Below are positions 9,166 through 33,371 of a stretch of DNA of 45,704 nucleotides, piece after piece; within the stretch, counting starts at the first letter, position 1, and every line of letters starts with the position of its first letter. A model generated the notes under the pieces. The model had not been told where the DNA came from. It was given only the letters and a program-made list of their open reading frames with translations, and made no database searches. Source of the stretch: Nitrospirales bacterium (lineage in GTDB: Bacteria > Nitrospirota > Nitrospiria > Nitrospirales > UBA8639); the NCBI GenBank assembly GCA_022824735.1, contig JAJDZI010000127.1, forward strand, positions 1-45,704. The letters run 5' to 3'. The translations under genes and the position numbers were made by a program.

Positions 9166-10501
9166 CGTTTCCGATCTCCGGTTACCACCCCAGAATCTCG
9201 ACGCCGAGCAATCCATCCTCGGGGCCGTCCTGTTGGAAAATAGTGCGCTCAATAAGGCGCTTGAGGTCATTGTCGAAGAAGACTTCCATCGCGGGGCGCA
9301 TCGCACCATTTTTGCGGGGATGATCGAACTGGCTGACCGCAATGAAGTGGTTGATCAGATCACCTTGACCGAATGGCTGAAAACCAAAGGTCAATTGGAG
9401 CAGGTCGGCGGTGCGGCGTACGTGGCCGAATTGGTGCAGGCGGTGCCGAGCGCGTCGAATATCCGGTATCACTGCAAAATCGTCCGCGAAAAATCCCTGT
9501 TGCGCGGGTTGATCCGCACCGCGACGGACATTGTGACCAAGGGCTATGACGGACTTGGGGAGTCGGAAGACCTCCTGGAATACGCGGAACGGGAGATCTT
9601 CAGGCTGGCACAGGGTCGTTTGGGCCGGTCGTTTGAATCCATGAAACAAGCCGTCATCGAAAGCATGGAGCTTGTTGATCGACTCTATTCTCGAAAAGAA
9701 AACATTACGGGCGTGCCGACCGGCTATCACGTCATTGACACGATCACGGCCGGGCTTCAGCCGTCCGATCTCATTATCATTGCCGGTCGCCCGAGCATGG
9801 GGAAAACCAGCCTGGCCTTGGGTATGGCTGAACATGCCGCGATTCGCGCGGGTCTGACCGTGGGGATTTTCAGCCTGGAAATGTCGAAAGTCCAACTCGT
9901 GCTCCGGATGCTCAGTTCCCAGGCGAGCCTCGATTCTCATGCCCTGAGGACGGGGCAACTCGATCGTCATGCGGAGTGGAGTCAGCTCGTTGATGCGGCC
10001 AATCGCTTGGCCGGCGCCAAGATTTTCATTGATGATTCCGGAGGGATGACGGTCCAACAGATGCGGGGCAAGGCCCGGCGTCTCAAGGCCGAACACGGCC
10101 TGGATCTGTTGATCATCGATTACCTGCAACTCATGCAGGGACGCAGTGATTCCGAATCGCGACAGCAGGAAATTTCCGACATCAGCCGGTCACTCAAGGC
10201 GTTAGCCAAGGAATTGGATATCCCGGTGGTGGCGCTTTCCCAGTTGAGCCGGGCCGTGGAAAACAGGACGGACAAACGGCCCGTCCTCTCCGATCTCCGT
10301 GAATCCGGGGCGATTGAACAGGATGCGGACGTGGTGATGTTCATTTATCGTGAGGAGGTTTATAATCCGGATACGGAGGACAAAAGAAGCATTGCCGATA
10401 TTTTGATTCGGAAACATCGCAATGGCCCGACGGGCGACCGTCAACTGACGTTCCTGGAGCAGTATGCAAAATTTGGCAATCTTGAGACCCAGCATCTCTA
10501 A
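9143..10501 (+). CDS. dnaB: Replicative DNA helicase DnaB
   Basis: 452 residues. The N-terminal domain opens PPQNLDAEQSILGAVLL, then comes a linker, then a RecA-like helicase domain. Walker A is GRPSMGKTS at about 215-223, Walker B is LLIIDYLQLM, and the DnaB signature SRQQEISDISRSLKALAKEL follows. The hexamer unwinds the fork 5' to 3' and recruits primase. The start is either ATG 9143 or ATG 9152; both overlap hisZ (23 or 14 bases), which implies translational coupling. No intein is visible. The pairing with hisZ looks positional rather than functional. Confidence 0.96.
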   Translation: MVRMLTSDVSDLRLPPQNLDAEQSILGAVLLENSALNKALEVIVEEDFHRGAHRTIFAGMIELADRNEVVDQITLTEWLKTKGQLEQVGGAAYVAELVQAVPSASNIRYHCKIVREKSLLRGLIRTATDIVTKGYDGLGESEDLLEYAEREIFRLAQGRLGRSFESMKQAVIESMELVDRLYSRKENITGVPTGYHVIDTITAGLQPSDLIIIAGRPSMGKTSLALGMAEHAAIRAGLTVGIFSLEMSKVQLVLRMLSSQASLDSHALRTGQLDRHAEWSQLVDAANRLAGAKIFIDDSGGMTVQQMRGKARRLKAEHGLDLLIIDYLQLMQGRSDSESRQQEISDISRSLKALAKELDIPVVALSQLSRAVENRTDKRPVLSDLRESGAIEQDADVVMFIYREEVYNPDTEDKRSIADILIRKHRNGPTGDRQLTFLEQYAKFGNLETQHL

Positions 10502-13074: not shown

Positions 13075-15240
13075 ATGGATCTTCTGATGAACTTTCTGGG
13101 GCGATTGTCCCAGAGTTTTTTCCCCTCTGTCCCCAACCAGGCCCCACCTCGTCATTGGAAGCCGCACAACCCTTCCCTGAGGCTTGTCTCCAACAACCGT
13201 GGAGCAGCAGGAGACGTGGACTGTGCGCAGGGCCGAACCGCTCCACCAACCGTTGGCCACGCGGAAGCCGTAGAAGAAGCCTTGTCGCGGAGCGCGAAGT
13301 GGCTTCTCGACCAACAACATCCTGAGCATGGCTATTGGGTGCAGGAATTGGAGGCGGATACGACGTTGACCTCGGAATATATCATGTTGCGCCGGTATGT
13401 CGGAGCCGTCGACACGGAGCAGGAAGCCAGGATGGTTCGCTATCTTCAAGGCGCGCAACTTGAAGACGGGGGATGGCCGATTTATACCGGAGCCCCCATG
13501 GACGTCAGCGCTTCGGTCAAAGCCTATTTTGCTTTAAAATTGGCCGGGGTCCCACAGGATGATCCGGGGATGCGTCGAGCCCGGCAAGCGATCCTGGACA
13601 AAGGCGGCGTGGTATCAGTCAACGTCTTTACGAAAGTCGCGTTGGCCTTGTTCGGACAATACGATTGGAAAGGGCTTCCGAGCATGCCTCCCGAAGTCGT
13701 GTTGGCGCCCAAGAAATTTGCCTTTAACATGTACGCCATCTCGTACTGGTCCAGGGCCGTCGTCATTCCCCTGCTGATCGTGTTGGCCGTTCGCCGGGAA
13801 TGCCGGGTTCCCGCGGAACGAGGGATTGAAGAGTTGTTCTGTGCGCCTCGCGATCAAATCAACTATCGCTATGCGCCGCCGTTTCAAAAAGATCCCGAAT
13901 TCATCAGTTGGCGGAATTTTTTTGTCTGGATCGACCGGATTCTGAAGGTTTATGAGAAATATCCGCTTCGGTTCGTGCGGAAAAAAGCGATGAAGCGAGC
14001 CGAGGCGTGGTTGCTGGAACATATGCAGGGTGACGGGGGACTCGGGGCAATTTACCCGGCCATGGCCAATTCGATCTTTGCTTTGATGGCGCTTGGTTAT
14101 CCGGCGTCGCATCCGTTAGTCCGGAAGGCTCTTCGAGAAATCGAGGCATTGGAAATCAGCGTGCCGGCCTCAGCGGAAGGCCCGTCTACGCTTCACCTGC
14201 AGCCGTGTCATTCGCCAATTTGGGATACGGCGTTAACCATCAACGCGCTCGTTGAAAGAGGCCTGCGCGTTGACCATGAAGCGCTGTCGCATGCCTCTTC
14301 CTGGTTGCGTTCCCGGCAAACAAAGAAGGTGGGAGACTGGATCGTGTCTTCTCCCGGGGCTACGCCCGGCGGATGGTATTTTCAGTTTGAAAATGAATTA
14401 TATCCCGACGTCGATGATACGGCCGCCGTCCTGACCGCCTTGGCGAAAGTATCGCCTCTTCAGCCTGCCGACCGGGATGAGGTTATTGAGCGCGGGCTGA
14501 AGTGGGCGTTGGCCATGCAAAGCTCCAACGGCGGGTGGGGGGCCTATGACCGGGACAATGATCAACTGATTTTCAACAAGATTCCCTTCGCGGATCATCA
14601 GTCGTTGCTTGATCCTCCCACCGCGGACCTCACGGGCCGGTGCTTGGAGATGCTCGGCGCTTTGGGCTATGATCGGTCTCATCCTGCCGTGGCCCCGGCG
14701 CTTGAGTTTCTTCGACGAGAGCAGGAAGCCGACGGCAGTTGGTATGGGCGATGGGGGGTCAATTATCTCTACGGGACCTGGTGCGTCGTCGTCGGCCTTC
14801 AGGCTATCGGAGAGGACATGTCCGCGCCGTGGATTCGACGCGCCGTTGCGTGGGTTGAGTCCAAACAGAACGTGGACGGCGGATGGGGAGAATCCTGCTT
14901 GTCGTATGCCGACCGGGCATGGGCCGGGAAAGGCGAAAGCACTCCCTCGCAAACGGCGTGGGCCCTTCTGACCTTATTGACCGCGGGTTTGCCCGATTCC
15001 TTGAGCATTGCGCGAGGCATCAATTTTTTGCTTCGCCATCAACTTGATAACGGGACGTGGTACGAGCCATACCACGTCGGCACCGGATTCCCCAGGGTGT
15101 TCTATCTTCGATATCACGGCTACAGCAAATATTTCCCCATGTGGGCGCTGGCCATGTATCGTAATGTTCAGGTACACGGTCGGGCGCGAGCTCAAGCGTT
15201 GCAAGACATCGCGCAATCAGCCAGGCAACGGCAACCCTGA
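13075..15240 (+). CDS. shc: Squalene-hopene cyclase
   Basis: 721 residues. It cyclises squalene to hopene/diplopterol at the cytoplasmic membrane, the committed step to hopanoids. The catalytic acid motif DVDD is at 445-448 (YPDVDDTAA). QW repeats are seen, for example AQLEDGGW, SSNGGWGAYD, EADGSWYGRWG and NVDGGWGE. The first 60 or so residues before the cyclase homology (HAEAVEEALSRSAKWLL) are a poorly ordered extension, so translation may begin at the in-frame ATG 13087 or later. An HpnG-like gene follows with overlap or no gap. Confidence 0.96.
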   Translation: MDLLMNFLGRLSQSFFPSVPNQAPPRHWKPHNPSLRLVSNNRGAAGDVDCAQGRTAPPTVGHAEAVEEALSRSAKWLLDQQHPEHGYWVQELEADTTLTSEYIMLRRYVGAVDTEQEARMVRYLQGAQLEDGGWPIYTGAPMDVSASVKAYFALKLAGVPQDDPGMRRARQAILDKGGVVSVNVFTKVALALFGQYDWKGLPSMPPEVVLAPKKFAFNMYAISYWSRAVVIPLLIVLAVRRECRVPAERGIEELFCAPRDQINYRYAPPFQKDPEFISWRNFFVWIDRILKVYEKYPLRFVRKKAMKRAEAWLLEHMQGDGGLGAIYPAMANSIFALMALGYPASHPLVRKALREIEALEISVPASAEGPSTLHLQPCHSPIWDTALTINALVERGLRVDHEALSHASSWLRSRQTKKVGDWIVSSPGATPGGWYFQFENELYPDVDDTAAVLTALAKVSPLQPADRDEVIERGLKWALAMQSSNGGWGAYDRDNDQLIFNKIPFADHQSLLDPPTADLTGRCLEMLGALGYDRSHPAVAPALEFLRREQEADGSWYGRWGVNYLYGTWCVVVGLQAIGEDMSAPWIRRAVAWVESKQNVDGGWGESCLSYADRAWAGKGESTPSQTAWALLTLLTAGLPDSLSIARGINFLLRHQLDNGTWYEPYHVGTGFPRVFYLRYHGYSKYFPMWALAMYRNVQVHGRARAQALQDIAQSARQRQP

Positions 15241-16045
15241 TTGGCGCCGTCTTTTCTCACTTCAACGGTTTCCGGAGTCCTTCCTGGAAAATATCGCCGT
15301 CTTTGCCGCGACGCCTTGGGAGTTTAACGCCATTGGGCGGGCATTGCCTGCAAGTCGCGTTGAACGGATCAACGGGGTTAAGTGGCGTCGATGGGCGGAT
15401 GCTTCCCGTTTCGTTGCCGTCATTCAAACCGGGATTGGGTTGGCAAACGCGCGGGCCGCGTGCGAGGCAGTGCGTCTGAAAAGACCCTGGACCGTGTTTA
15501 TTTCATCGGGGTTTGCGGGAGCCTTGGTTCCCTCACGAATTGGCGACGTGGTGATTCCCGAGCAAGTCGTCTGTGCGGATTCGAGCCTCGCGGGTTCCGT
15601 TCCCGGTTCCTCGATTGCCTGTAGCGTTCCGTATCGGCAACAAGCCTACAAAACGGCGCAGTTGTCCGAGGGCGCGGTTCTCTCCGGACGTTTGGTCACG
15701 GTTGACACTATCGTCTGGTTGGCTAGAGACAAGCTGGCCGTCGGCAGGGACTTTGAGGCAAGCAGTCTGGACATGGAAAGCGCAGCTATCGGGTCGATGG
15801 CTGCCCGGCATGACATCCCGTTCTGCGTGATCCGGTCGGTTTCTGACCGCTTGGAGGAAGACTTGCCCTTCGACCTCAACCTGTTTCGCCGAACGGGTAC
15901 GTTCGTGCAAGGGGTGTGGGCCGTTGCCACAACCCCGGGAAAATGGCCGGAGTTCAATCGACTGCGCCGGCAAAAGAACGTGGCTTCGGCCCGGCTATCT
16001 CAATTCTTTGAAATCTTTTTCTCTATGACGGAAAATAGTCCCTGA
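15164..16045 (+). CDS. hpnG: Hopanoid-associated nucleoside phosphorylase (HpnG-like)
   Basis: The homologous part begins at about 15287 (NIAVFAATPWEFNAI). It includes a phosphorylase-fold core (SSGFAGAL, IGDVVIPEQVV) and the purine/uridine phosphorylase signature SLDMESAA. HpnG removes adenine from adenosylhopane to give ribosylhopane (phosphate). It sits directly after shc and in the same neighbourhood as hpnH, which makes adenosylhopane. The start is unclear: ATG 15164 overlaps shc by 77 bases, while a CTG at 15284 fits the homology boundary better. No ATG or GTG lies between the shc stop and the homology. A generic MTA/SAH nucleosidase-like function is the alternative. Confidence 0.8.
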   Translation: MFRYTVGRELKRCKTSRNQPGNGNPDWRRLFSLQRFPESFLENIAVFAATPWEFNAIGRALPASRVERINGVKWRRWADASRFVAVIQTGIGLANARAACEAVRLKRPWTVFISSGFAGALVPSRIGDVVIPEQVVCADSSLAGSVPGSSIACSVPYRQQAYKTAQLSEGAVLSGRLVTVDTIVWLARDKLAVGRDFEASSLDMESAAIGSMAARHDIPFCVIRSVSDRLEEDLPFDLNLFRRTGTFVQGVWAVATTPGKWPEFNRLRRQKNVASARLSQFFEIFFSMTENSP

Positions 16046-21653: not shown

Positions 21654-22388
21654 ATGGAGAAGGATACATGCCAGAAAATGATGAGTCTTGTTGCCATTGC
21701 GGCATTGGGGTGGACGTTATCAGCCTGCGGAGAAGCCAAGCCGCCGGCTCCGCCACCTCCGGCGCCGCCGGAATATGCCGATAAGCATATGCCGGATGGC
21801 TATTGGAACAATCCGGAGATTATTGAGCAAGGGAAGGCGATCTTCACCGGGGCGGAAAATATCGACGTGAATTGCGCCAGTTGCCACGGCAAGGACGGGA
21901 AGCCCGTCAAGGCCGGGGCGCGTGATTTTCGCAAAGGTGACTTTATGAAGCTGTTCTCCGATTCCCAATGGTTCTGGCGCGTGTCCGAAGGGGTCAAGGG
22001 AACCAAAATGAAGGCTTGGAAATCCAAGCTGTCCGAGGATGAACGGTGGAAAGTGATTGCTTTTGAAGCCACGTTCGGCTTGAAAGGCCAGGAATATAGT
22101 GTCGCTGAGCAGAAATGGGTCCCCGCTGGGATGGCCAAGACGGCTGAGGATGTGGCCGCTGAAAAGAAGAAGGCGGCTGAAGAAGCAGCGGCTCCGGCGG
22201 CTGAAGAGGCAGCTCCCGCAAGTGATGAAGCGGCGGCTCCGAATGGAGAGGCGGCGGCTCCGAATGGAGAAGCGGCGGCTCCGAATGGAGAAGCGGCAGC
22301 TCCGAACGGAGAAGCGGCAGCTCCGAATGGAGAAGCGGCGGCTCCGAATGGAGAGGCGGCTGGGGGAGAATCGGGGTCACCAGAGTAA
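21654..22388 (+). CDS. Monoheme cytochrome c lipoprotein with C-terminal AAAPNGE repeats
   Basis: 244 residues. It has a lipoprotein signal (lipobox LSAC, Cys25), a Pro-rich spacer, and one heme c site CASCH (C74, C77, H78). The rest of the small class I-like domain follows, with KMKAWKSKLSEDERW giving a plausible Met ligand in TKMKAW. After about residue 165 comes an Ala/Glu/Lys helix and then six perfect AAAPNGE repeats (about 193-234). It would be a membrane-tethered electron carrier facing the periplasm. It opens an eleven-gene same-strand run. Confidence 0.9.
   Translation: MEKDTCQKMMSLVAIAALGWTLSACGEAKPPAPPPPAPPEYADKHMPDGYWNNPEIIEQGKAIFTGAENIDVNCASCHGKDGKPVKAGARDFRKGDFMKLFSDSQWFWRVSEGVKGTKMKAWKSKLSEDERWKVIAFEATFGLKGQEYSVAEQKWVPAGMAKTAEDVAAEKKKAAEEAAAPAAEEAAPASDEAAAPNGEAAAPNGEAAAPNGEAAAPNGEAAAPNGEAAAPNGEAAGGESGSPE
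22230..22355 (+). repeat. Six tandem 21-base units coding AAAPNGE
   Basis: The unit GCGGCGGCTCCGAATGGAGA(G/A) is repeated six times in frame, with only silent third-position changes (GGA, GAG/GAA, GCG/GCA). High identity means recent expansion and likely copy-number differences between strains. It lies in the C-terminal tail of the first cytochrome c of the operon. Confidence 0.95.
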
Positions 22389-22444
22389 TGCGGGTGCTTC
22401 CCACGTTCCTTTTGCGGCATTAACCGGAAGGAGGGCCACCACCC

Positions 22445-24157
22445 TTGAAAACCTTAATCCGCAGTTCCGTCATATTGCTAGGACTTGTGCTGGGCGGGCT
22501 TGCCGTCGCCTATGCCCAGTCTCCGGCTCCCCCACCTGTGGAGTTTCCCTACACCGGGAATCGGACGGGGGTGTGGATCGTGGCCCAACTTCATATATTG
22601 TTTGCGGCCTTCATCCTGGGAGCCCCGATATTCGCCGTGGTGTCGGAATGGTTGGGCTATAAAAACCAGGATCCGAAATATGATCGACTGGCCAAGGAAG
22701 TCACCAAGGTCACGGTGATCCTCTATAGCATGACCGCTTTGACGGGCGGGCTGTTTATTTTTGTCCTGCTGGCGACCTATCCCGGTTTCACCACTTGGCT
22801 CATCCAGCATTTTTTCCTGATTTTCGCCGTGGTGTATCCGGTCCTGTTTATTCTTGAGACGATTATCTTGTACACGTATTTTTACTCATGGGATACCCTG
22901 AAAGGTGAAAAGAAAGCCCGGCATATTGCCTTGGGGGTCTTGTTGAACGTCGTGGGCACGGTCACGTTGTTCGTTATTGACGGCCCGACGGCGTTTATGA
23001 ACACACCTGCCAAATCCGCGGAAGGCGTCTCGTTGATTCAATTCGTTCAATCAGCGGGTCTGTGGGACAAGGTTGCCAATTACAGTTGGATGCCCCTGAA
23101 TCTCCATCGGTTGGTCGGGAACGTCACGTTCGGCGGGTTTATCGCAGGGCTGGTGGCGGCGTATATGTATATGGGCGCCAAGACGGATGAAGATCGCTCG
23201 TACTACGATTGGATGGGATTCGTAGGCAATATGATCGGCGTGGGCGCGCTTCTGTTCCTGCCCTTCATGGGGTATCTGCTGGCGTATGAACTCTGTGATT
23301 ATGACGCGTCCATTTGCCCGTACATGATGGCGGACCAATTGTCGATGTTTTTTGAGATGCAAGGCGCCATGGTCGGCCTGATCTTCCTGGCCAGTAATTA
23401 TTACATCTGGTTGAGTATGAAGCGAATTGAAGGAGTGGAACAGGTACGGATCTCCGGCATGGTCATGATTGCCGTCCTTCTGATTCCATTGGTCATGGGG
23501 GTCGCGTGGAAACTGTTCCCGCCGCCTGAATGGCAGTCGCTGATTTTCCTGGCGGCGCTGATCGTGTTGCCGCCGGTGTTGAGCCGGCTCCCCGGTTTAC
23601 GGTTTACCGTGTCTTCCTTCACCATGATCAAGGTCGGCTTTCTGATGATCGTGATCGCCAACGCCATCTGGATGACGCCCCACGGATTTGTGGCGACGCA
23701 GGCGTTGGCCACTGAAGAATTGGAACTCCCCTCGTGGGCCAGTGAGTTGGCGCTGATGCCGGCTAAAAATGCGGCCGCGTTTACGTTGGTCTTTCTAACC
23801 ATCGTCAACTATCTGCTCTATAACCGGGCTATCAGGAGCGGGACCATTATTTGGGGAAAGATCGACTTTACGTCCCAGTTCGTCCTGATTTTCCTGGCGT
23901 TCAGTGCGATTTGGACCATGGGCTTGATGGGAACGGTTCGATCCCTCACGAGGAAGTATTTTCACGTATATAACCTTGTGCCGGACTTTACCCCCGAAGC
24001 CTTTACGCCGACTTTGGCCTATTCCGCCTGGTGGATTACGGGTGTGACCCTGGTCTTTTATCTCGTGGTCAGTTTTGCCATTATCGTGACGCTAAGAACC
24101 ACCGGGCAAAAATCCGAGGCCCCGCAAGCGGCTCCGGTGCCTGCTGGCGCGGAATAA
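22445..24157 (+). CDS. Cytochrome bd-like oxidase subunit I paralogue (CydA-like), with signal peptide
   Basis: 570 residues from TTG 22445, with AAGGAGG about 11 bases upstream. A signal peptide (AVAYAQ) is followed by a polytopic domain matching CydA by pattern. His50 in AQLHILFAAFILG sits where CydA His19 is. FILETIILYTYFYSWDTLKG aligns with the CydA Glu107 region (E138). LHRLVGN (H221) aligns with the His186 region, and FTMIKVG (M394) can be aligned with Met393. The CydA Glu99 position is Val, and no GRQPW quinol-loop motif is seen. The protein may therefore bind heme but not act as a standard quinol oxidase. No CydB gene is nearby. A second paralogue lies at 28029. Confidence 0.85.
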   Translation: MKTLIRSSVILLGLVLGGLAVAYAQSPAPPPVEFPYTGNRTGVWIVAQLHILFAAFILGAPIFAVVSEWLGYKNQDPKYDRLAKEVTKVTVILYSMTALTGGLFIFVLLATYPGFTTWLIQHFFLIFAVVYPVLFILETIILYTYFYSWDTLKGEKKARHIALGVLLNVVGTVTLFVIDGPTAFMNTPAKSAEGVSLIQFVQSAGLWDKVANYSWMPLNLHRLVGNVTFGGFIAGLVAAYMYMGAKTDEDRSYYDWMGFVGNMIGVGALLFLPFMGYLLAYELCDYDASICPYMMADQLSMFFEMQGAMVGLIFLASNYYIWLSMKRIEGVEQVRISGMVMIAVLLIPLVMGVAWKLFPPPEWQSLIFLAALIVLPPVLSRLPGLRFTVSSFTMIKVGFLMIVIANAIWMTPHGFVATQALATEELELPSWASELALMPAKNAAAFTLVFLTIVNYLLYNRAIRSGTIIWGKIDFTSQFVLIFLAFSAIWTMGLMGTVRSLTRKYFHVYNLVPDFTPEAFTPTLAYSAWWITGVTLVFYLVVSFAIIVTLRTTGQKSEAPQAAPVPAGAE

Positions 24158-24175
24158 CGGAGGTGGGAAGCGAGT

Positions 24176-24982
24176 ATGGCTGAGCAAAGTTTGACGCGAA
24201 ATATCATCAAAAAAGGCACCATTGGCGTCCTTCTGGGGATTCTCCTGGCAGGGGTGGCCAAGGCCACGCATTTCCCCTTCGTCTTCCAGGTCATGTTCTT
24301 TATTTATGCCATGCTCGGCGCGGGCGTGTTTATTCTCCTTGATGCGCCCTCCCTGAATCGTCTTGAGGGTATAAAGGCGATCATTGGCCTGGTGTTGTTT
24401 TACCTGGTGCTTTCCGGGGTCTACATCGGCGGAGCGAGTGGCTTGCCCCAGTACGACCCGGAAGTCGAAAAAGGAAAAATCGAAAAGATCCTGAAAGCAC
24501 GCCGGGCAAGGACCCAGCAAGGCAAAGCCGAAGAGCTGATCGCGCGGGCCAAAGCCCTGAATGAGCGCGCCGTCTCGATCGAGCAACAATTGAAAGTGCT
24601 GGGCGGCGGCGTACAGGTCGTGGAGGAAGCCGCGACGCCTACCTCAACGGCAGCGGCCGGGGACCTGGTTGCGCTCGGCAAGGAACAATGGGAACTGCAA
24701 GAGTGTTACAACTGTCACAAACTCTTTGGGCAAGGCGGTAAGAAGCGGGGGCCCGAACTGGACAATATCGGCAATCTCATGACGCCTGAAGCCCTCAGGG
24801 AAAAAATTCTCAATCCCAAGAGTTGGAAGGCCGAAGGATTCGACAAGCAGTACAAGAAAGGCAAAATGCCGAACAAATATAAAGACTTGATGTTTGATGA
24901 AGAGATCGACGCGCTGGTGGCTTTTTTGGCGACATTGAAAGATACATCGGTCAATACACCGAAGCCCATCAAAATGAAATAA
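24176..24982 (+). CDS. Membrane-anchored monoheme cytochrome c
   Basis: 268 residues. It has two to three N-terminal membrane spans (about 13-30, 36-55 and 67-86). A charged coiled-coil stalk (about 95-145) leads to a C-terminal class I cytochrome c with CYNCH (C177, C180, H181) and a likely axial Met in KKGKMPNKY (M231). It has no cleavable signal. The GGAGGT site supports ATG 24176. The design resembles a cytochrome held on a stalk near the Rieske/cytochrome b genes that follow, 18 bases on each side. It probably accepts electrons from the Rieske centre, but this is inference. Confidence 0.9.
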   Translation: MAEQSLTRNIIKKGTIGVLLGILLAGVAKATHFPFVFQVMFFIYAMLGAGVFILLDAPSLNRLEGIKAIIGLVLFYLVLSGVYIGGASGLPQYDPEVEKGKIEKILKARRARTQQGKAEELIARAKALNERAVSIEQQLKVLGGGVQVVEEAATPTSTAAAGDLVALGKEQWELQECYNCHKLFGQGGKKRGPELDNIGNLMTPEALREKILNPKSWKAEGFDKQYKKGKMPNKYKDLMFDEEIDALVAFLATLKDTSVNTPKPIKMK

Positions 24983-25000
24983 CCTCATTCCAGGTGGTCG

Positions 25001-25945
25001 ATGCAGCCCAAAATTAAGGCAAAAGCGCGGTGCGCCGACGGGGAAGTCGGCAGTATCTCCAAGGTCATCGTTGATCCGTTATCCCTTGAGATCAGTCACG
25101 TGGTCGTCAGGGAGGGGGACGGGCAAGGCGTTGACCGCCAAGTTCCGGTCGGCTGGATCGAGGACATCCCGAACGAAGAAGAGATTGTGTTGCGGGGGTC
25201 GCTGGAGGACTTCAAGGCATGTCCCGTGCTGGACCGGGATGCTTACGTCACGCATCATGACGTGGAAATCGCGCATTTGGAAGACCGTCTCCACGTGGAG
25301 CCCGGCGAAATTCTCGTGCCCTATCCCCGGCTGGAGCAGGGGGTGCCCCGGCGCAGCTTTTTCATGAACATGACGCATGCCATCGGAACGTTGATCGCTC
25401 TCCCCTTGGCGTTCCCCGTTTTAAAATATCTCATGAAACCCATGTATAAGCCGTTCGACAATTCCTGGTTTTCCGTCGGGAACGTTCGGAAAATCAAAAA
25501 GGAAAACATCGGCTACCAGTTCAAGTTTACCCGGGGCTTCAAGGAAGCCTTTATGCCCGAACAGCAGATCGAAAAAAACATCTGGGTCGTAAAGGCCACG
25601 CCTGAAGTGCAAAAGGCGGTCTACGGCGGGAAAGACAAACAGTTTTATGACCATAAGGGAGACGTGGTGTGGGTGAATAAAGCCAAGACGCCCTACATCG
25701 GTTTTTCCGGAAAATGTCCGCACTTGGGATGCGGGTACAAGTGGAGAAGGACAAAGAATTTTCCTGACGGCGTCTTCCTGTGTCCCTGTCATTTGAGCAT
25801 CTATGACGAGGCGGGCAAGGTGCTGGATGGCCCGGCCCCGCGGTCTCTCGACGTCCTGCCGATGCAAGTCAATGCCGCCGGGGAAGTCCAGATCATCGAC
25901 GTCGAATACAAGGCCGGGGTGAAAGGCCAAATCCGGCTGCTGTAG
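25001..25945 (+). CDS. Rieske [2Fe-2S] protein with N-terminal PRC-barrel-like domain
   Basis: 314 residues. Residues about 1-110 look like a PRC-barrel domain: KAKARCADGEVGSISKVIVDP, then SHVVVREGDG and VPVGWIEDI. A single membrane span (about 122-145) follows, then a Rieske domain with both cluster boxes complete: CPHLGC (C239, H241, C244) and CPCH (C261, C263, H264). Ordinary Rieske proteins of bc1/b6f complexes have no such N-terminal domain, which here would lie in the cytoplasm. Cytochrome b follows after 8 bases, so this is the high-potential arm of a quinol:cytochrome c oxidoreductase-like complex. Confidence 0.92.
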   Translation: MQPKIKAKARCADGEVGSISKVIVDPLSLEISHVVVREGDGQGVDRQVPVGWIEDIPNEEEIVLRGSLEDFKACPVLDRDAYVTHHDVEIAHLEDRLHVEPGEILVPYPRLEQGVPRRSFFMNMTHAIGTLIALPLAFPVLKYLMKPMYKPFDNSWFSVGNVRKIKKENIGYQFKFTRGFKEAFMPEQQIEKNIWVVKATPEVQKAVYGGKDKQFYDHKGDVVWVNKAKTPYIGFSGKCPHLGCGYKWRRTKNFPDGVFLCPCHLSIYDEAGKVLDGPAPRSLDVLPMQVNAAGEVQIIDVEYKAGVKGQIRLL

Positions 25946-25953
25946 CATCGCTC

Positions 25954-27060
25954 ATGAGCGACAAGACCACCAACGCACCCAACGCCTTTGAAAAAGTTGT
26001 CGACTTCGTCGATGAACGGGTCGGCCTGAAAACGATCCAGGCCAAAATGCTGAATGAGCCCGTTCCCGGCGGGTCCCGATGGGCGTACGCGTTCGGGTCG
26101 TGTTTGTTGTTCATCTTCATTATGCAGGTGGTGACCGGGATCCTGTTGATGTTTTATTACGTCCCGAGCACCGATCACGCGTACGCCAGCACGCAGTACA
26201 TCATTCATGAAGTGGACTACGGATGGTTTCTGCTGAGTTACCATTTTTGGGGTTCCTCGGCTATGGTCGTGATGGTGTTCGCCCATATGTCGCAAGTGTT
26301 TTTGTGGGGAGCCTATAAGAAGCCCAGGGAATTGATTTGGTTGGTCGGGCTGGCCCTTTTCGGGCTGGTCATGGCATTCGGTTTTACAGGGTATCTGCTT
26401 CCATGGGACCAACGGGCGTACTGGGCCACGGTCGTGGGCGTCGAGATCATGGATAAGACCCCAATCGTCGGGGATTTCCTGAGTCGTTTCTTGAAAGGCG
26501 GACCAACCCCTGGTCAAATGACTTTGAGCCGGTTTTTCGTTATTCACGTGATGGTGCTGCCGGCGGGATTGATGGGGTTGGCGGGTCTCCATCTCTTCCT
26601 GTTCCGGAAAGCCGGACCGGCCGGGCCGTTCCGTGGAACTCCCGAACAAATCAAGGCGAAGACGGATTATTTCTTCCCCAGACAAATCTGGAAAGACATC
26701 GTGGCCATGGCCACGGTCTTCCTGATCATTTGCACGTTGGCGTTTATCGAGCCGGTCGTGTTGTTGGAAGAGGCCACGCCGGACCCTGGGGATTATCATC
26801 CTGAGCCTGAATGGTATTTTCTCTTTCTCTTCCAGTTGTTGCGATTAAAGATCTTTGGCGGAGAATTCGGTCAGTTTTTGGGAGCCGTGGCGATTCCCGG
26901 AGCGTTTATGGGATTCCTTGCGGCGTTGCCCTTTCTTGACAGGAATCCGGAGCGGAATATTTTCAAACGGCCGATTGCGTTGATCGGCTGGATTGCCATT
27001 ATGGCGGTGATCCTGATTTTCACCGTTTCCGCGATTCTGAACAGAGAATTTTTGGATTAA
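25954..27060 (+). CDS. Cytochrome b, b6/subunit IV-fused type, of a bc complex
   Basis: 368 residues. It begins like b6 (ERVGLKTIQAKMLNEPVPGG), and the four heme-ligand histidines are H97, H111, H198 and H213. The second pair is 15 apart, the b6 spacing; bc1 has 14. KKPRELIW, LPWDQRAYWA and the Qo motif PEWY (286-289) are present. Seven membrane spans are expected. The position of the b6 Cys that binds heme ci covalently appears to be Ala46 (alignment by eye), so a standard ci heme is not expected. It is co-encoded with the Rieske protein and forms the quinone-reactive core. Confidence 0.95.
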   Translation: MSDKTTNAPNAFEKVVDFVDERVGLKTIQAKMLNEPVPGGSRWAYAFGSCLLFIFIMQVVTGILLMFYYVPSTDHAYASTQYIIHEVDYGWFLLSYHFWGSSAMVVMVFAHMSQVFLWGAYKKPRELIWLVGLALFGLVMAFGFTGYLLPWDQRAYWATVVGVEIMDKTPIVGDFLSRFLKGGPTPGQMTLSRFFVIHVMVLPAGLMGLAGLHLFLFRKAGPAGPFRGTPEQIKAKTDYFFPRQIWKDIVAMATVFLIICTLAFIEPVVLLEEATPDPGDYHPEPEWYFLFLFQLLRLKIFGGEFGQFLGAVAIPGAFMGFLAALPFLDRNPERNIFKRPIALIGWIAIMAVILIFTVSAILNREFLD

Positions 27061-27065
27061 TCATC

Positions 27066-28007
27066 ATGTCGAACGCCAAACTCGGTCTCCTGGTCTTGTG
27101 GCCAACCTTCTGGACGGGTTTTCCCCTGAAGATGGTGGCGGCATTGCTCATGTTGGCCGCCGGCGTGCATCCCTGGGAAGGCGTCGGCCTGGAAGCGTTG
27201 TTGGTGCTTTCCATTCCTATCGACGTTTGGGCGCTCGGCCTGTGTTCACGAACTGTTTTTCTGGAACGGTTGAGCGTGGATCCGCCCAAGGGAACGGGCC
27301 TTCGCTTGTGGGGGCTGTGGGCCGTTTTTTCCATCGTGTATCTTCCCCTGTTGTTCATGATCCTGGGCGGCGTCAAGTCCCTGGCTCAATCCGCGGTCCA
27401 CGCCACGTTGCATTTTGTTGAAAACAACGTCATCGTGATTCCCATCGCGGAAAAGATCAGCCTGGAATTGGTCATGTGGGGATTGCCGGCTACCATCGTC
27501 CTGATCATCCTGGTCTATGGTTGGTTGTTCGGTTTGGGCGCCTTGGCTCAACGCTTTGTTCGCACGTCCACGCCCGTCGAGGGGGCGTTCCAGGATATTG
27601 TTTCGAAATGGGACCTTCTCAGGATTCCGCGAGATCAGCCGCTCTTGCTGACGGCTTTTACGGGAACCGGCGTCGTGCTGATCATGATGTTTTGGGGCTT
27701 GCTTCCCGTGAGTACGCCCCACCCTCATGAAGAATACGAATTTGTGGAAGTTCAAAAGGTAGAAAAAAAGATCGTTCCCAAAAAGGTTATCAAAAGCGCC
27801 GAGCAGGTCCTGGCGCGTGCCGAAGCCACGTTGAAGGAATTGGAAAAAGAGAATCCCGCGGCGGAAACGGCGAAAGGGGAGAACGTCGCGCCGGGGCAGA
27901 AGAAGCCGGCGCCCCAGGCGACACCGGCGGCTGTCAAGAAGCCGGCGGCAACGGGCGCTGCGGGGTCCGACGGGCATGACCACGACCATGGCGATCATAA
28001 GCATTAA
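27066..28007 (+). CDS. Unknown polytopic membrane protein with charged and His-rich C-terminal tail
   Basis: 313 residues, starting 5 bases after cytochrome b. About five membrane spans are visible (near residues 6-35, 40-58, 78-100, 135-160 and 195-215). A long hydrophilic tail is rich in Lys, Glu, Ala and Pro and ends DGHDHDHGDHKH. I recognise no family, heme-binding CxxCH or quinone motif. Tight spacing on both sides argues that it belongs to the same complex. The His/Asp end could bind metal (Cu, Zn or Ni) or aid assembly; this is a guess from composition. Confidence 0.75.
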   Translation: MSNAKLGLLVLWPTFWTGFPLKMVAALLMLAAGVHPWEGVGLEALLVLSIPIDVWALGLCSRTVFLERLSVDPPKGTGLRLWGLWAVFSIVYLPLLFMILGGVKSLAQSAVHATLHFVENNVIVIPIAEKISLELVMWGLPATIVLIILVYGWLFGLGALAQRFVRTSTPVEGAFQDIVSKWDLLRIPRDQPLLLTAFTGTGVVLIMMFWGLLPVSTPHPHEEYEFVEVQKVEKKIVPKKVIKSAEQVLARAEATLKELEKENPAAETAKGENVAPGQKKPAPQATPAAVKKPAATGAAGSDGHDHDHGDHKH

Positions 28008-28028
28008 CGAACCAATGAGGGCTCACAT

Positions 28029-29885
28029 ATGAAAAACCGCGGCATAATCGAAAATCTGAAGTCCCTGGTGCCAACGGTGAAACCCTCATCTCTTTTCGGC
28101 TGGAGTGTCTTTTGGGCGCTCGTGCTTCTCCCGGCGCTTGTTTGGGCCCAGGACGCGGCCACCCAGGCGATGTCCGTCGAATATCGCGACATTCCGGGAC
28201 TCGGAAGCCGGAACGTGGTTTGGGTCGTGGCCCAACAGCATTTGCTGCTCGCCGGGTTCGTCTTGGGTGTGCCGATTTTTGCCTGGGTGTGTGAAATCGT
28301 GGGGTGGAAGACCAAGGAGGCCAGGTACGACAAACTGGCAAAAGAGTTTACCAAGCTCCTGACGTCCGCGTACGCCACGACGGCCCTGTTCGGAGGCATC
28401 CTGCTCTTTTTGCTGATCGGGCTGTACCCGAAGCTCATGGCCTATTTGTCCGATATCTTTTTCCCGTCTTTCATCGTGTATTGTCTACTGTTCCTGTTGG
28501 AAACCGCCACCCTGTACCTGTACTGGTACGGATGGGACGCCATGCAGGGGAATAAAAAAACCTTCCACCTGTTTTTGGGATTCCTGCTGAACGTCTTTGC
28601 CTTGGGTATCATGGTCGTTCCCAACGCTTGGGCCACGTTCCAGGCGAGCCCCGTCGTGGTCGCCGAAGGCACGGCCATTGATCGGGCCTGGGCGGCTACG
28701 TGGAATCCAACGTGGTGGCCGGTCAACATCCATCGACTCATTGCCAACGTGGTGTTGGGCGGGTTTATTTGCGGCGCCTATGCCGGTATCCGCTATCTTC
28801 TGGCGGCCAGCCAGGAAGAACGGGAGCATTATGATTGGATGGGCTACGTCGGAAACTTCATCGGCGTATTCGGTATGCTTCCCCTTCCCTTTGCCGGATA
28901 TTGGCTCATGCGCGAGATCTATCAATACAACCAGCAGATGGGAATCACCCTCATGGGCGGGTTCCTGGCGTGGCTCTTCATCTTGCAGGCCATGCTCATC
29001 GGGGTGTTGTTCCTCGGAGCCAATTACTATTTCTGGATGGGTATTACCTACCGGATTCCCGGCTCCGAGCGAGGGTACAGGCGACCGATCCTGGCCATGC
29101 TGATCGTGCTCATGGTATGCCTGGGCGTCTGGATGACACCGCACTCCCTGGTGGCCAGTCTTGAAGAGGCCAGGAAAATGGGCGGGACCCACCACCCGCT
29201 GCTTGGAGTGTTCGGGGTGATGTCCGCCAAAATGACGGTATCCAACCTCATGATCCTGGTCACCTTTATGAGCTTCATCATGTATTGGCGAGCCGGTAAG
29301 CAGGAAACGGCCGGGTGGGCAAAAATCGCCAAATCCGTAATGGGCGCTCTGCTGGTGCTCGCGGGAATTGCCGTGATCGTGCTTGGGGTATGGGGGTATT
29401 TCGTGCCTGCCATTATCCGGATCAATTATTTCTCCGTTGCGCAGGTGTTGATCGTCCTGTTTATCATGCTGACGTTTACGCCTTTGACGGCCATCCTGAT
29501 GAAAAGCGCCAAAACCACGACGGAAATGGTCTGGGGGCAAATGCCGATCCGGGCCGGGTATGCGTTGGTATCCAATGCGGTCATGGTCATTTTGTTGATG
29601 TCGCTGATGGGCTATGCCCGGTCGTCGTCCAGGGTGCACTGGCACATCTACGGCGTGATGAGGGATACGTCGGACTACGCGTATTCTCCCGCGTTGGGCT
29701 ACGCGGCCGCGTTCATGTCCCTGAACACCTTTGTGTTCTGCTTATTGGTGGCGTTCATCTTTTGGGTTGCCACGATGGGTGACAAGGGGAAGAAAACCCC
29801 TGACCGGAAAGAACCCGAACCGGCGAAGATCCCGGCAGGCGTGACGCCGGCCATGGCCGGCGGTTCCCCACGGGAACAGGATTGA
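28029..29885 (+). CDS. Second cytochrome bd-like oxidase subunit I paralogue (CydA-like)
   Basis: 618 residues, homologous along its length to the product of the gene at 22445. An N-terminal membrane/signal segment (about 24-41, LPALVWAQ) precedes the core. Shared features are H71 in AQQHLLLAGFVLG, FLLETATLYLYWYGWDAMQG (E158, at CydA Glu107) and NIHRLIAN (H235, at His186). The CydA Glu99 position is Val, and the Met394 of the first copy aligns with Pro by eye, so the heme sets of the two copies probably differ. There is no quinol-loop motif. The C-terminal tail is Pro/Lys-rich. Two copies flanking Rieske/cytochrome b suggest a heterodimer. Confidence 0.85.
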   Translation: MKNRGIIENLKSLVPTVKPSSLFGWSVFWALVLLPALVWAQDAATQAMSVEYRDIPGLGSRNVVWVVAQQHLLLAGFVLGVPIFAWVCEIVGWKTKEARYDKLAKEFTKLLTSAYATTALFGGILLFLLIGLYPKLMAYLSDIFFPSFIVYCLLFLLETATLYLYWYGWDAMQGNKKTFHLFLGFLLNVFALGIMVVPNAWATFQASPVVVAEGTAIDRAWAATWNPTWWPVNIHRLIANVVLGGFICGAYAGIRYLLAASQEEREHYDWMGYVGNFIGVFGMLPLPFAGYWLMREIYQYNQQMGITLMGGFLAWLFILQAMLIGVLFLGANYYFWMGITYRIPGSERGYRRPILAMLIVLMVCLGVWMTPHSLVASLEEARKMGGTHHPLLGVFGVMSAKMTVSNLMILVTFMSFIMYWRAGKQETAGWAKIAKSVMGALLVLAGIAVIVLGVWGYFVPAIIRINYFSVAQVLIVLFIMLTFTPLTAILMKSAKTTTEMVWGQMPIRAGYALVSNAVMVILLMSLMGYARSSSRVHWHIYGVMRDTSDYAYSPALGYAAAFMSLNTFVFCLLVAFIFWVATMGDKGKKTPDRKEPEPAKIPAGVTPAMAGGSPREQD

Positions 29886-29951
29886 AAAGGGGCCTTGGCG
29901 TGATGGAGACCCTATTGACGTTGGCATTGCCAAACTGGAGCGAGAGAACCC

Positions 29952-30560
29952 ATGAGTGAAGTCGTGTTACTCCAATTGATCGGTCTCACGGTCGTAGGAC
30001 TCGGCATCTGTATCCTGCTCTTCATCAAGGCGAAGTTCCTCAGGGTGGTCGGTTTCGTGGTGATCGTATTGGGGACTTTTACCCTGATTGCCTTGGGGGT
30101 GCCGCAGATGGCCTCCCTTCCTCCGGCGATCGAGACCTTTGACATTGCCGAAGTCAAAACGCCGGATGACTTGGCCTCGATCGGTCAAAAGATTTTCTTC
30201 AGCAAAGGCCAGTGCGCCTTGTGCCACTCCATCGGCCCCAGTGAATCAGCCCGGTGCCCGGATTTGAAGGGCATCGGGGCGAAACTCGCGCCGGAATTCA
30301 TCTATGAAAGCCTCACCGACCCGCAAGCCTATATTTATCTTGATTTCAGGCATGAAGGTCTGCCCAAGGAATATCCGGCACGGATGCCCTATATCCACAA
30401 GAATCCGATTGCCTTGTCGCAACAAGAGATTTATTCGGTCATTTCCTTTCTCCAGAAAATGAGCGGGGAACCCATTAGCATCAAGGTCGAAGACGTGATG
30501 AATATCGGCAAGGAAAGCGAAGTGGAAGTCGCTTCCCTCGCCGTCAATGGAGCACCTTAA
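29952..30560 (+). CDS. Membrane-anchored monoheme cytochrome c
   Basis: 202 residues. Two N-terminal membrane spans (about 6-25 and 31-52) lead to a cytochrome c domain with CALCH (C88, C91, H92) and an ARMPYIH segment giving a possible Met ligand. An extra Cys in SARCPDLKG is close to the heme site. Hydrophobic N-terminus and periplasmic heme domain fit a fixed carrier in the complex. The gap to the preceding gene is 66 bases, one of the largest in the operon, and the next gene is 15 bases on. Confidence 0.9.
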   Translation: MSEVVLLQLIGLTVVGLGICILLFIKAKFLRVVGFVVIVLGTFTLIALGVPQMASLPPAIETFDIAEVKTPDDLASIGQKIFFSKGQCALCHSIGPSESARCPDLKGIGAKLAPEFIYESLTDPQAYIYLDFRHEGLPKEYPARMPYIHKNPIALSQQEIYSVISFLQKMSGEPISIKVEDVMNIGKESEVEVASLAVNGAP

Positions 30561-30575
30561 CCAAAAGGGTGAACG

Positions 30576-31301
30576 ATGAAAGGTCCTCTTGCGAAAACGG
30601 CTATCCTGTTGGTGGGAATGTATGTGTTTCTCAAGTTCATACTCCCATTGTTTACGGCACCGCTCCCGGCCAGTTTGATTTTTCTCTACCTGGCCCTGAC
30701 CTTTGCCTCCGCGATGATTTTCTACACCATGAGCGGGGGAAGCCTCGATGAATTCATGGGGCCGGTCGGGCGATTTCTTACCGGTTCGGGGCAAGCGGGA
30801 GTTGCCGGGACCGCGCGCGTCCTGGTGTTCGTGTTGTTTCCCTTGTTGGTGGGATGGCAAACGTACACCAAGCTTGCCCCAAGCGATTTGCCGCCTGCGG
30901 AAAATCGAACCATTCATCCCGCGCCTCCCGGCGAGTTCGTCGGGTTGGCCAACCCGTATCCGAGAACGCCGGAAAACATCATGATGGGAAAGGGCTTGTA
31001 TGCGGCGTTTTGTTCGCCCTGTCACGGAGCCAATTTTGACGGGAAAGGTCCGGCGGCCGTGGGCTTCAATCCGCCTCCGGCGAATTTCAGCGATCCGGGA
31101 ACGATTGCCCAATTACAGGAATCCTATCTTTTCTGGCGGATCAAGAAAGGCGGCGTCGGGCTTCCGGTTGAAGCGATGCCTTGGAAATCGGCCATGCCGC
31201 GCTGGGAAGTGGAATTGCCGGATGAATGGATTTGGAAGATCATCATGGGTGAATACGACGGCGCAGGTCAATCTCCACGGACTTGGGAAGAAGAGGAATA
31301 G
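30576..31301 (+). CDS. Membrane-anchored monoheme cytochrome c
   Basis: 241 residues with three N-terminal membrane spans (about 8-27, 33-52 and 80-97). A periplasmic cytochrome c domain follows with CSPCH (C146, C149, H150), a GANFDGKGPAAVGFNPPPANFSDP-like loop typical of small cytochromes, and Met candidates in EAMPWKSAMPRW. The N-terminal spans differ in sequence from those of the other anchored cytochromes here, so these anchors were acquired separately. It precedes the NxrC-like gene. Confidence 0.9.
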   Translation: MKGPLAKTAILLVGMYVFLKFILPLFTAPLPASLIFLYLALTFASAMIFYTMSGGSLDEFMGPVGRFLTGSGQAGVAGTARVLVFVLFPLLVGWQTYTKLAPSDLPPAENRTIHPAPPGEFVGLANPYPRTPENIMMGKGLYAAFCSPCHGANFDGKGPAAVGFNPPPANFSDPGTIAQLQESYLFWRIKKGGVGLPVEAMPWKSAMPRWEVELPDEWIWKIIMGEYDGAGQSPRTWEEEE

Positions 31302-31379
31302 GTAACGGGGTGAGGTCGCGTCCTCGCAGGCCCGACGATTGCCGGAAACGTCGAAGGGAAGGATCCAAGGAGCAGGAAA

Positions 31380-32216
31380 ATGGGATATAAGAAGATCTTC
31401 AGCGTCGCGCTTGGACTCACCCTCATGGTGACGGGAGTCGAGGTTTCCGGCGTGTTTGCGAGCGACCCGCCGCCGGAGGGCGAAACCGGAAGCGTGGCCG
31501 TTCGTTTGTTCTTGACGGAAGGGGCCGTCCCTGCAAATGATCCGAATGCCGCCGTGTGGAACACGATCGAGCCTGCGGAATTCAAGCTGGCTCCCCAAGT
31601 GCATTGGCCGGACCGCATTCAGGAAGTCACGGTGAAGTCCGTGAAGGTTCGCGGGGTCCACAATGGCGAGGATATGGCAATCCTGCTGGAGTATGCCGAT
31701 CCATCTGAAGATGCCGCTGATGCCGCCGCAGTCGAGTTCATGGTCGGTGACAAAATGGCCCACTTCGCCCATGGGCAGGAAATGCTTCAGGTCGAGGGGG
31801 GAGACGTCAATATCTGGTATTGGAAGAAGGAACACGGCAAAGCCACCAATATGACGGCCAGGGGCTTCAAGACGCTTCGGCCGCAGGAAAGCCAGAACGT
31901 CTCGGCAACGGGAGCCTGGCAGGATGGAACGTGGCGCGTCGTGTTTTCACGGCCCCTGCGAACCGGTGAAGACCTGGACGTACAAGTGACGCCGGGAGAA
32001 TGGCGAAACGTGGCATTCGCGTTTTGGGACGGGGAAATCGTGGATGGAGACGTGAAAGAAAAGGGGTCACAAAAAGCCATTTCATCATGGTGGTACCTTC
32101 GAGCCGAGCCGCCACCGGACAATTCCATTTATGGATACGTCGTGTTGGGTATCGTGCTTGCTGCTGGCTTTGAGTTTTTCCTGGTGAGAAAAATTCGGAG
32201 GGGTAACGAATCATGA
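31380..32216 (+). CDS. Ethylbenzene dehydrogenase-type heme b subunit (NxrC-like)
   Basis: 278 residues. It has a signal peptide (ending VSGVFAS) and a beta-rich domain with the pattern of the gamma subunits of DMSO-reductase-family type II enzymes: VAVRLFLTEGAVP, VWNTIEPAEFKL, VRGVHNGEDMAILLEYADP, VEFMVGDKMAHF and GEWRNVAFAFWDGE. A C-terminal membrane span (about 249-270) follows. Such subunits hold one heme b by Met and Lys; DKMAHF and the KEKGSQKAISSWWYL region are candidate ligand sites. In Nitrospira the NxrC candidates pass electrons from nitrite oxidoreductase. No alpha or beta subunit is nearby, so here it may belong to the bc/bd-like complex. Confidence 0.85.
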   Translation: MGYKKIFSVALGLTLMVTGVEVSGVFASDPPPEGETGSVAVRLFLTEGAVPANDPNAAVWNTIEPAEFKLAPQVHWPDRIQEVTVKSVKVRGVHNGEDMAILLEYADPSEDAADAAAVEFMVGDKMAHFAHGQEMLQVEGGDVNIWYWKKEHGKATNMTARGFKTLRPQESQNVSATGAWQDGTWRVVFSRPLRTGEDLDVQVTPGEWRNVAFAFWDGEIVDGDVKEKGSQKAISSWWYLRAEPPPDNSIYGYVVLGIVLAAGFEFFLVRKIRRGNES

Positions 32217-33304
32217 AGGGAGAGCAAGGCATGCAGCGGGTACTGAGCAGGGTCGCCGTCGTGGTCGTCGCGGTCTTTGCCGTGACGAGCGGTTGCGCCT
32301 TGTTTGAAGATGAACGGACGGCAAAAGGCCGAAAACTCTATCGTCATTACTGCATGCATTGTCACGGCGAAAGCGGACAACAGCAGGAGGGCTTTAACTG
32401 GGAACGGATGCCGGACCCGCGTCCTCGGGACTTGTCGGAATCCGAAGCGATGTCGACGTTCTCGGACGAAGAAATTTTCAACACAATTTCCCGGGACATG
32501 CGCGATACCACGTTGCAGGAAGTGCTCGATGATGAAAATTATTTCGCGGTCTCGACCATGCCGACCTTCAAGTATACGCTCTCCGAAGAAGAACTCTGGG
32601 CCGTGGTCGGCTACGTGCGAACGCTGCACGGCGGGTCGTTGACGTTTGACGTGGAAGGCCGGAAAGCCGAGTTGGAATCCCGGTTCAAGGCGGCTGAGAC
32701 GGCCCATGATCAGGCTAAACAGGCCATGGACGAAGCCTTGGCGAAACAGGAAGCCGAAGAAGCCGCCAGGGCCGAGGCCGAAGAAGAAGCCGAAGAAGAA
32801 GCCGAAGAAGATGACGAAGATATGGATATGGAGGACGACGAGGACGCTGACCTGGAAGAAGAGGATGAAGAGGAAATCCTGCTTCCCGAAGAAGAGGCCT
32901 ATGAAAAGGTGGCTGAACAATTTGAAGCTGCCAAGGCCGCGTGGGAAAATTTCTCGAAACGTCCCAGGATGACTCAGATTGCGCGTCCGGACTTAACCGT
33001 GGAGGAGACGGAAAAAGCCGTCTTGGAAGAAAAAGGCAAAAGCCTCTATTTCAACAAATATGGCTGTAACGGGTGTCATAGTATCGGAGACGTTGGTGGT
33101 CTGGTCGGACCTGCCTTGGACCGTGCCGGCTTCCGTCTCAACGATACCTGGGTCTATCGCTGGGTCCGTTACCCGCAGGGCATGAAAAAGCACACGCGCA
33201 TGCCGAACCTGGGACTTGATGACCCGGATGCGCGAGCCGTAACCGCCTATCTCGATACGCTGCGCGCCCCGAAACCGGACAAGCCAATTCCCCTGCCTGA
33301 ATAA
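32213..33304 (+). CDS. Diheme cytochrome c lipoprotein with acidic linker
   Basis: 363 residues; ATG 32213 overlaps the previous stop by four bases (ATGA). It has a lipobox TSGC (Cys28). The first cytochrome domain has CMHCH (C47, C50, H51) and a likely Met ligand in STMPTFKY. A very acidic, coiled-coil-prone linker (about 145-245; the core 178-228 is mostly Glu, Asp and Ala) leads to a second domain with CNGCH (C285, C288, H289) and TRMPNLG. The two hemes may be held apart for long-range transfer, and the acidic region could dock basic partners or bind cations. It is the last gene of the operon. Confidence 0.92.
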   Translation: MKGEQGMQRVLSRVAVVVVAVFAVTSGCALFEDERTAKGRKLYRHYCMHCHGESGQQQEGFNWERMPDPRPRDLSESEAMSTFSDEEIFNTISRDMRDTTLQEVLDDENYFAVSTMPTFKYTLSEEELWAVVGYVRTLHGGSLTFDVEGRKAELESRFKAAETAHDQAKQAMDEALAKQEAEEAARAEAEEEAEEEAEEDDEDMDMEDDEDADLEEEDEEEILLPEEEAYEKVAEQFEAAKAAWENFSKRPRMTQIARPDLTVEETEKAVLEEKGKSLYFNKYGCNGCHSIGDVGGLVGPALDRAGFRLNDTWVYRWVRYPQGMKKHTRMPNLGLDDPDARAVTAYLDTLRAPKPDKPIPLPE

Positions 33305-33333: not shown

Positions 33334-33371
33334 CCCTCTCCCCATCGTGGGAGAGGGCTAGGGTGAGGGGG
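33334..33371. repeat. Dispersed palindrome CCCTCTCCCC...GGGAGAGGG, convergent intergenic copy
   Basis: The stem CCCTCTCCCC/(T)GGGAGAGGG encloses a short loop and is followed by CTAGGGTGAGGGGG. Related copies lie at 34365-34403 and 45438-45510. It sits between the converging ends of the diheme cytochrome gene and the UbiA-type gene, where the hairpin could end transcription from both sides, though there is no T-run. Similar elements are common dispersed intergenic repeats in GC-rich bacteria. Confidence 0.75.

Follow-up and report, generated by a model that had tools for sequence, protein, structure and literature searches.

An eleven-gene respiratory cluster of Nitrospirales combining a b6-type bc core, c-type cytochromes and a candidate CydA-like oxidase

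Genes and layout of the operon

The window, i.e. the whole stretch of DNA analysed (45,704 nucleotides, contig JAJDZI010000127.1 of the Nitrospirales assembly GCA_022824735.1), carries eleven intact co-directional ORFs on the + strand between positions 21654 and 33304. They are separated by gaps of 56, 18, 18, 8, 5, 21, 66, 15 and 78 bases and by one 4-base overlap, which agrees with an earlier sequence-only reading of the locus (eleven genes on a single strand with gaps of 5 to 78 bases or a 4-base overlap). Pfam and NCBIfam searches and a motif scan gave the following order (scores are those of the domain named):

21654..22388, +, gene 1: lipoprotein of 244 aa, a monoheme c-type cytochrome ending in a tail of NGEAAAP repeats (CXXCH at residue 74; conserved lipobox Cys25; Cytochrome_CBB3 2e-9)
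22445..24157, +, gene 2: CydA-like protein of 570 aa starting at TTG, in the bd-like_1 position, putatively OR-N1 (Cyt_bd_oxida_I 54 bits)
24176..24982, +, gene 3: monoheme cytochrome c that has membrane helices at its N-terminus (Cytochrom_C 2e-12; CXXCH at 177; three hydrophobic segments)
25001..25945, +, gene 4: Rieske iron-sulfur protein extended at the N-terminus by a PRC-barrel-like domain (Rieske 1e-7; one membrane segment, 127-145)
25954..27060, +, gene 5: b6-type cytochrome b with a fused C-terminal part (Cytochrome_B 7e-51; Cytochrom_B_C 3e-8)
27066..28007, +, gene 6: orphan membrane protein of 313 aa in which a TPHPH motif is invariant (position conserved)
28029..29885, +, gene 7: CydA-like protein of 618 aa in the bd-like_2 / NIDE0901 position, putatively OR-N2 and a candidate for the core of an O2 reductase (Cyt_bd_oxida_I 68 bits)
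29952..30560, +, gene 8: membrane-anchored monoheme cytochrome c (CXXCH at 88; Cytochrom_C 4e-7; N-terminal helices)
30576..31301, +, gene 9: membrane-anchored monoheme cytochrome c (CXXCH at 146; Cytochrome_CBB3 5e-7; three hydrophobic segments)
31380..32216, +, gene 10: heme b protein anchored in the membrane, NxrC/ethylbenzene dehydrogenase gamma-like, in the alt_NxrC_1 position (EB_dh 8e-22)
32213..33304, +, gene 11: diheme c-type cytochrome, probable lipoprotein (CXXCH at 47 and 285; conserved Cys28)

Genes 1, 3, 8 and 9 each include one CXXCH motif and gene 11 two, giving five c-type cytochromes with six hemes. The four monoheme proteins are predicted to be membrane-tethered, as had been claimed, gene 1 as a lipoprotein and genes 3, 8 and 9 through N-terminal membrane helices. 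Domain matches and CXXCH counts likewise bear out the two CydA-like proteins, the diheme cytochrome and the heme b protein of the ethylbenzene dehydrogenase type, and the cluster indeed contains no CydB, heme-copper oxidase or nxrAB gene. The gene 1 tail is composed of six NGEAAAP-type repeats; its length and sequence vary among close relatives and it is much shorter in N. defluvii. A long, highly acidic linker separates the two heme domains of gene 11. Directly past the operon (33334-33371), an inverted repeat (CCCTCTCCCC...GGGAGAGGG) and, after it, GGTGAGGGGG resemble a dispersed intergenic repeat.

The bc core is encoded by genes 4 and 5. The b6-type label that it had been given is upheld by the spacing of the heme ligand positions in gene 5 (His97/His111, 14 residues apart; His198/His213, 15 apart) and by its PEWY motif. 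The Rieske motifs CPHLGC/CPCH are invariant or almost so among gene 4 homologs. This protein has about 85 additional N-terminal residues, and a PRC match is found in 18 of 27 homologs at E-values up to 1 (best 2e-4). Since the PRC-barrel-like domain lies ahead of the only membrane segment of the protein, it is probably cytoplasmic. A search of the accessible literature found no description of a PRC-barrel combined with a Rieske protein. Neither cytochrome c1 nor f was identified in the cluster with Pfam and NCBIfam, the c-type cytochromes present being of other kinds. Gene 6 matches no family in the same two collections; its predicted structure is helical (pLDDT 76) and matches nothing in the PDB at E 0.001, so that neither route gave a known family or fold. 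Gene 10 carries an EB_dh/DMSO-reductase-II gamma (NxrC/EbdC-like) domain between an N-terminal signal-like helix and a C-terminal helix. It scores 108 bits against TIGR03477, a model of the DMSO-reductase-II heme b subunit, under the curated cut-off of 169.85, and does not qualify as NxrC on that basis.

The CydA-like pair and the respiratory inventory of the host

Genes 2 and 7 are related to subunit I of bd oxidases. The sole PDB sequence match of gene 2 is the bd subunit I of 5doq, and the top PDB matches of gene 7 are bd oxidases, as are the top structural matches of its predicted model (low confidence, pLDDT 56), in which the helix VI-VII loop appears short. A ribosome-binding site and the TTG start of gene 2 are kept in close relatives, and ATG is found in N. 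moscoviensis and N. defluvii. The proteins were aligned to E. coli CydA with MAFFT; the middle part was misaligned, and only N-terminal positions and missing motifs were used. Equivalents of His19 and His126 are present in both proteins in all sequences aligned, and that of Glu107 in all gene 7 sequences and in 30 of 34 for gene 2. Glu99 is substituted, the alignment has gaps at the quinol-loop positions Lys252/Glu257, and no equivalent of Glu445 or GRQPW occurs among the aligned homologs of either gene. Past the N-terminal third the alignment is uncertain, and heme ligands such as Met393 and the O2 site are unassignable. In a phmmer comparison, gene 7 His235 pairs with the histidine conserved in helix V of 5doq and 9r2g. 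A W-M-T-P-H stretch is conserved in both proteins.

The missing quinol-loop and GRQPW residues fit a loss of quinol oxidation in both proteins. Two CydA-like subunits occur here with neither the CydB partner nor the quinol site of a canonical cytochrome bd, and this combination is that of the OR-N CydAA' enzymes. NIDE0901-like proteins have been placed in OR-N2, and an OR-N1/OR-N2 CydAA' oxidase fed by cytochrome c has been proposed (PMC12342949, PMC10579370, PMC10839748); these O2 reductases are attributed to Murali et al. 2021, as cited in PMC12342949 and PMC10839748. From these papers and from gene position, genes 2 and 7 would correspond to an OR-N1/OR-N2 CydAA' pair. The operon therefore probably carries its own oxidase, a candidate for being fed by cytochrome c. 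The sequence-only reading had seen no oxidase here and failed on this point: the candidate cytochrome c-oxidising O2 reductase of the literature corresponds to gene 7 (bd-like_2, NIDE0901 type, OR-N2) paired with gene 2 (OR-N1).

The host genome is small (about 2.3 Mb, 98% complete), the window being its contig 31. Genome-wide searches identified gene 5 as its only cytochrome b and found no heme-copper oxidase (COX1), CydB or NrfD; an alternative complex III was rejected on the absence of NrfD. The nxrA and nxrB genes are located on a separate contig (contig 114). Four CydA-like matches were obtained in total, genes 2 and 7 and only two others, both on one contig (C39) and with the same residue losses. 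This C39 region (L051, G000:C39:5000-24990) carries the CydA-like genes at 8080-10035 and 13702-15663, together with cytochromes c and an NxrC-like match, and resembles the bd-like_3/bd-like_4 region of Nitrospira. Among the nearest named loci are 'Nitrospira sp. bin75' and a number of Nitrospirales bins, and by resemblance the host stands near the sponge-symbiont genus bin75 / 'Ca. Nitrosymbion', a placement with which the G+C content of the window is in keeping. For the described 'Ca. Nitrosymbion' species (GTDB genus bin75), the published inventory lists four bd-like oxidases, while cbb3, cydAB and alternative complex III are lacking (PMC11812461); this agrees with the inventory of the host (four CydA-like proteins; no COX1, CydB or NrfD).

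Conservation of the cluster and its occurrence without NXR

All eleven genes are found in the same order in 50 of the 51 Nitrospirales loci with enough flanking sequence to be judged (of 80 named loci). The synteny predicted earlier was thus found, and such conservation excludes a chance grouping of the genes. N. moscoviensis and N. defluvii both carry genes 1-11 in order with matching spacing. The single exception is CP070743, where genes 1-5 are seemingly missing; the break falls at a run of Ns in this scaffolded record and is not evidence of a real loss. This 'chromosome' (CP070743.1) contains 100-N runs about every 4.9 kb (4705, 9524, 14457, 19400), so that gene order across them is untrustworthy. 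Two further records titled 'Nitrospinota bacterium' (JADFRB010000078.1 and JACZVJ010000088.1) carry this Nitrospirales cluster with a gene 7 identity of 81-85%. Their titles look wrong, the apparent source genomes (G025 and G019) being filed in the window's own family.

The cluster extends beyond Nitrospirales. The set occurs in the same order in three genomes (G200, G206 and G242; 97-99% complete), gene 6 being weak in the first two and undetected in the third. Most of it is present in G241, G245 and G246, where it is partly cut by contig ends, and it is seen only in part in G243. No NXR-alpha match was obtained in G200, G206, G242, G243, G245 or G246 (95-99% complete), whereas the same search gave full or fragmentary matches in the Nitrospira-type genomes tested. 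Their class placement and lack of NXR suggest that these carriers may be relatives of 'Ca. Troglogloeales', an order in most of which bd-like TO_1 has been reported (PMC9040806). A strict tie between the operon and NXR was rejected on these genomes, and gene 10 does not follow the rule that NxrC occurs only with NXR alpha/beta. Because near-complete genomes of a sister lineage give no NXR-alpha match, the cluster appears not to be specific to nitrite oxidation, and the nitrite specificity implied by the sequence-only reading is not supported. That the complete cluster is found where NXR is missing sets it apart from nitrite oxidation and points to a general backbone for high-potential lithotrophy.

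A possible respiratory assembly and its known relatives

Nitrospirales produce much of the world's nitrate. To our knowledge no terminal oxidase has been isolated from them, and how they generate quinol is likewise not settled. With one cytochrome b and no more than four CydA-like proteins, this reduced genome narrows the options to two gene clusters.

Our favoured reading, to which we assign a probability of roughly 0.6, is that the cluster encodes one respiratory assembly in which a complex III core is joined to a complex IV-like oxidase, with forward and some reverse electron flow. We infer a physical assembly in which the Rieske/cytochrome b6-type core (genes 4 and 5) would exchange electrons between quinone and the membrane-tethered cytochromes c. 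Genes 2 and 7 would form a CydA/CydA' heterodimer that has lost the ordinary bd quinol site and would pass cytochrome c electrons to O2. The cytochromes of genes 1, 3, 8, 9 and 11 may connect both halves, replacing cytochrome c1 or f, and gene 10 could supply a heme b subunit on the periplasmic side for electron entry or docking. In lithotrophic growth, the majority of the electrons would pass from a donor in the periplasm via cytochrome c to O2, and some would be forced through the bc core to quinone at the expense of the proton motive force. Such reverse flow is a plausible mode of the cluster, and the earlier suggestion of it gains some weight from the sole cytochrome b of the genome. Since there is only one, any bc-dependent reverse flow must use the gene 5 complex, unless the bd-like cluster on C39 makes quinol instead, as Mundinger et al. 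suggested for its counterpart (PMC6606698).

The same genes could alternatively encode two separate complexes, a bc complex of the ordinary kind and a CydAA' oxidase independent of it, co-expressed from one operon and linked only by a diffusible cytochrome c. Conservation of an operon need not equal one complex and, in two other members of the class (L210 and L211), the gene 7-11 block comes first with Rieske/cytochrome b downstream, so that the two parts can move independently. The lack of cytochrome c1 or f, the membrane tethering of the linking cytochromes and the very strong conservation of gene order speak against this arrangement, which we regard as rather unlikely. Close to the sequence-only reading, the cluster might instead be dedicated mainly to moving electrons from cytochrome c to quinone; reverse flow must supply the quinol for autotrophy when the donor is of high potential, and the genome has only the one cytochrome b. 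Its CydA-like proteins would then be electron-transfer or proton-pathway subunits, as their lack of the canonical quinol-site and some active-site residues would allow, and O2 would be reduced by the C39 cluster, with its two further CydA-like proteins and nearby cytochromes c and NxrC-like match. However, the C39 proteins show the same residue losses, and the literature assigns the opposite roles, oxidase to the gene 7 ortholog and reverse flow to the C39-like bd-like_3 cluster (PMC6606698); this possibility seems to us distinctly improbable.

Least credible is a nitrite-specific module in which gene 10 docks NXR and nitrite electrons enter the assembly directly. Gene 10 is NxrC-like, NXR is encoded elsewhere in the genome, and docking of NXR was proposed for alt_NxrC_1 by Mundinger et al. 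(PMC6606698). Nevertheless, alt_NxrC_1 transcripts lie 25-fold below those of the main nxrC (PMC6606698), and the cluster, gene 10 included, occurs in the NXR-less genomes described above, which leaves this option very little room. Returning to the single assembly, a broader and more tentative version of it, possible but with odds below even, is that of an ancient donor-independent III-IV supercomplex of the class Nitrospiria. There a bc lineage whose Rieske protein bears a cytoplasmic PRC-barrel domain, and which has an orphan histidine-motif subunit, would be hard-wired to a cytochrome c-fed CydAA' oxidase, working forward and in reverse in genomes with no other complex III.

We know of no purified complex or activity for this cluster, and a literature search on Nitrospira and complexome returned, by title or abstract, no paper on it. 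The cluster itself has already been described in Nitrospira, and the present finding is a rediscovery that initially left out the oxidase. In N. moscoviensis, Mundinger et al. 2019 reported CIII_1, bd-like_1, bd-like_2, alt_NxrC_1 and several cytochromes c, noted that the cluster is highly co-expressed, and proposed a III/IV supercomplex (PMC6606698). The single-supercomplex idea of the sequence-only reading agrees with that proposal for the orthologous cluster, apart from the overlooked oxidase. What is added here is the conservation count, the NXR-less carriers, the single cytochrome b, the PRC-like domain of the Rieske protein and the family-less gene 6.

The eleven genes are in identical order in the N. 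moscoviensis CIII_1/bd-like_2 region. There two cytochromes c sit between bd-like_2 and alt_NxrC_1 (PMC6606698), exactly as two cytochromes c and then the NxrC-like gene follow gene 7, and genes 7-8-9-10 correspond to the published oxidase, cytochromes c and alt_NxrC_1. The two regions differ in sequence only (38-87% identity per gene), gene 6 of N. moscoviensis being longer through an N-terminal insertion. The cluster resembles the OR-N CydAA' O2 reductases in having a pair of paralogous CydA-like proteins and the NIDE0901-type position, and in lacking both CydB and a quinol site. Genes 2 and 7 have subunit I homology and helix I, III, IV and V residues in common with canonical CydAB but lack CydB, the quinol loop and GRQPW, and have a longer C-terminus with extra predicted helices. 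As in bc1/b6f complexes, the Rieske motifs, the four heme histidines of cytochrome b in b6 spacing and PEWY are all present, whereas the absence of cytochrome c1 or f, the PRC-barrel-like domain of the Rieske protein, the orphan gene 6 and the setting in an oxidase operon set this core apart. By gene content, the cluster can also be likened to TO_1-TO_4 of 'Ca. Manganitrophus' (PMC9040806), where bd-like proteins accompany a periplasmic cytochrome b or complex III components in a non-nitrifying member of the Nitrospirota.
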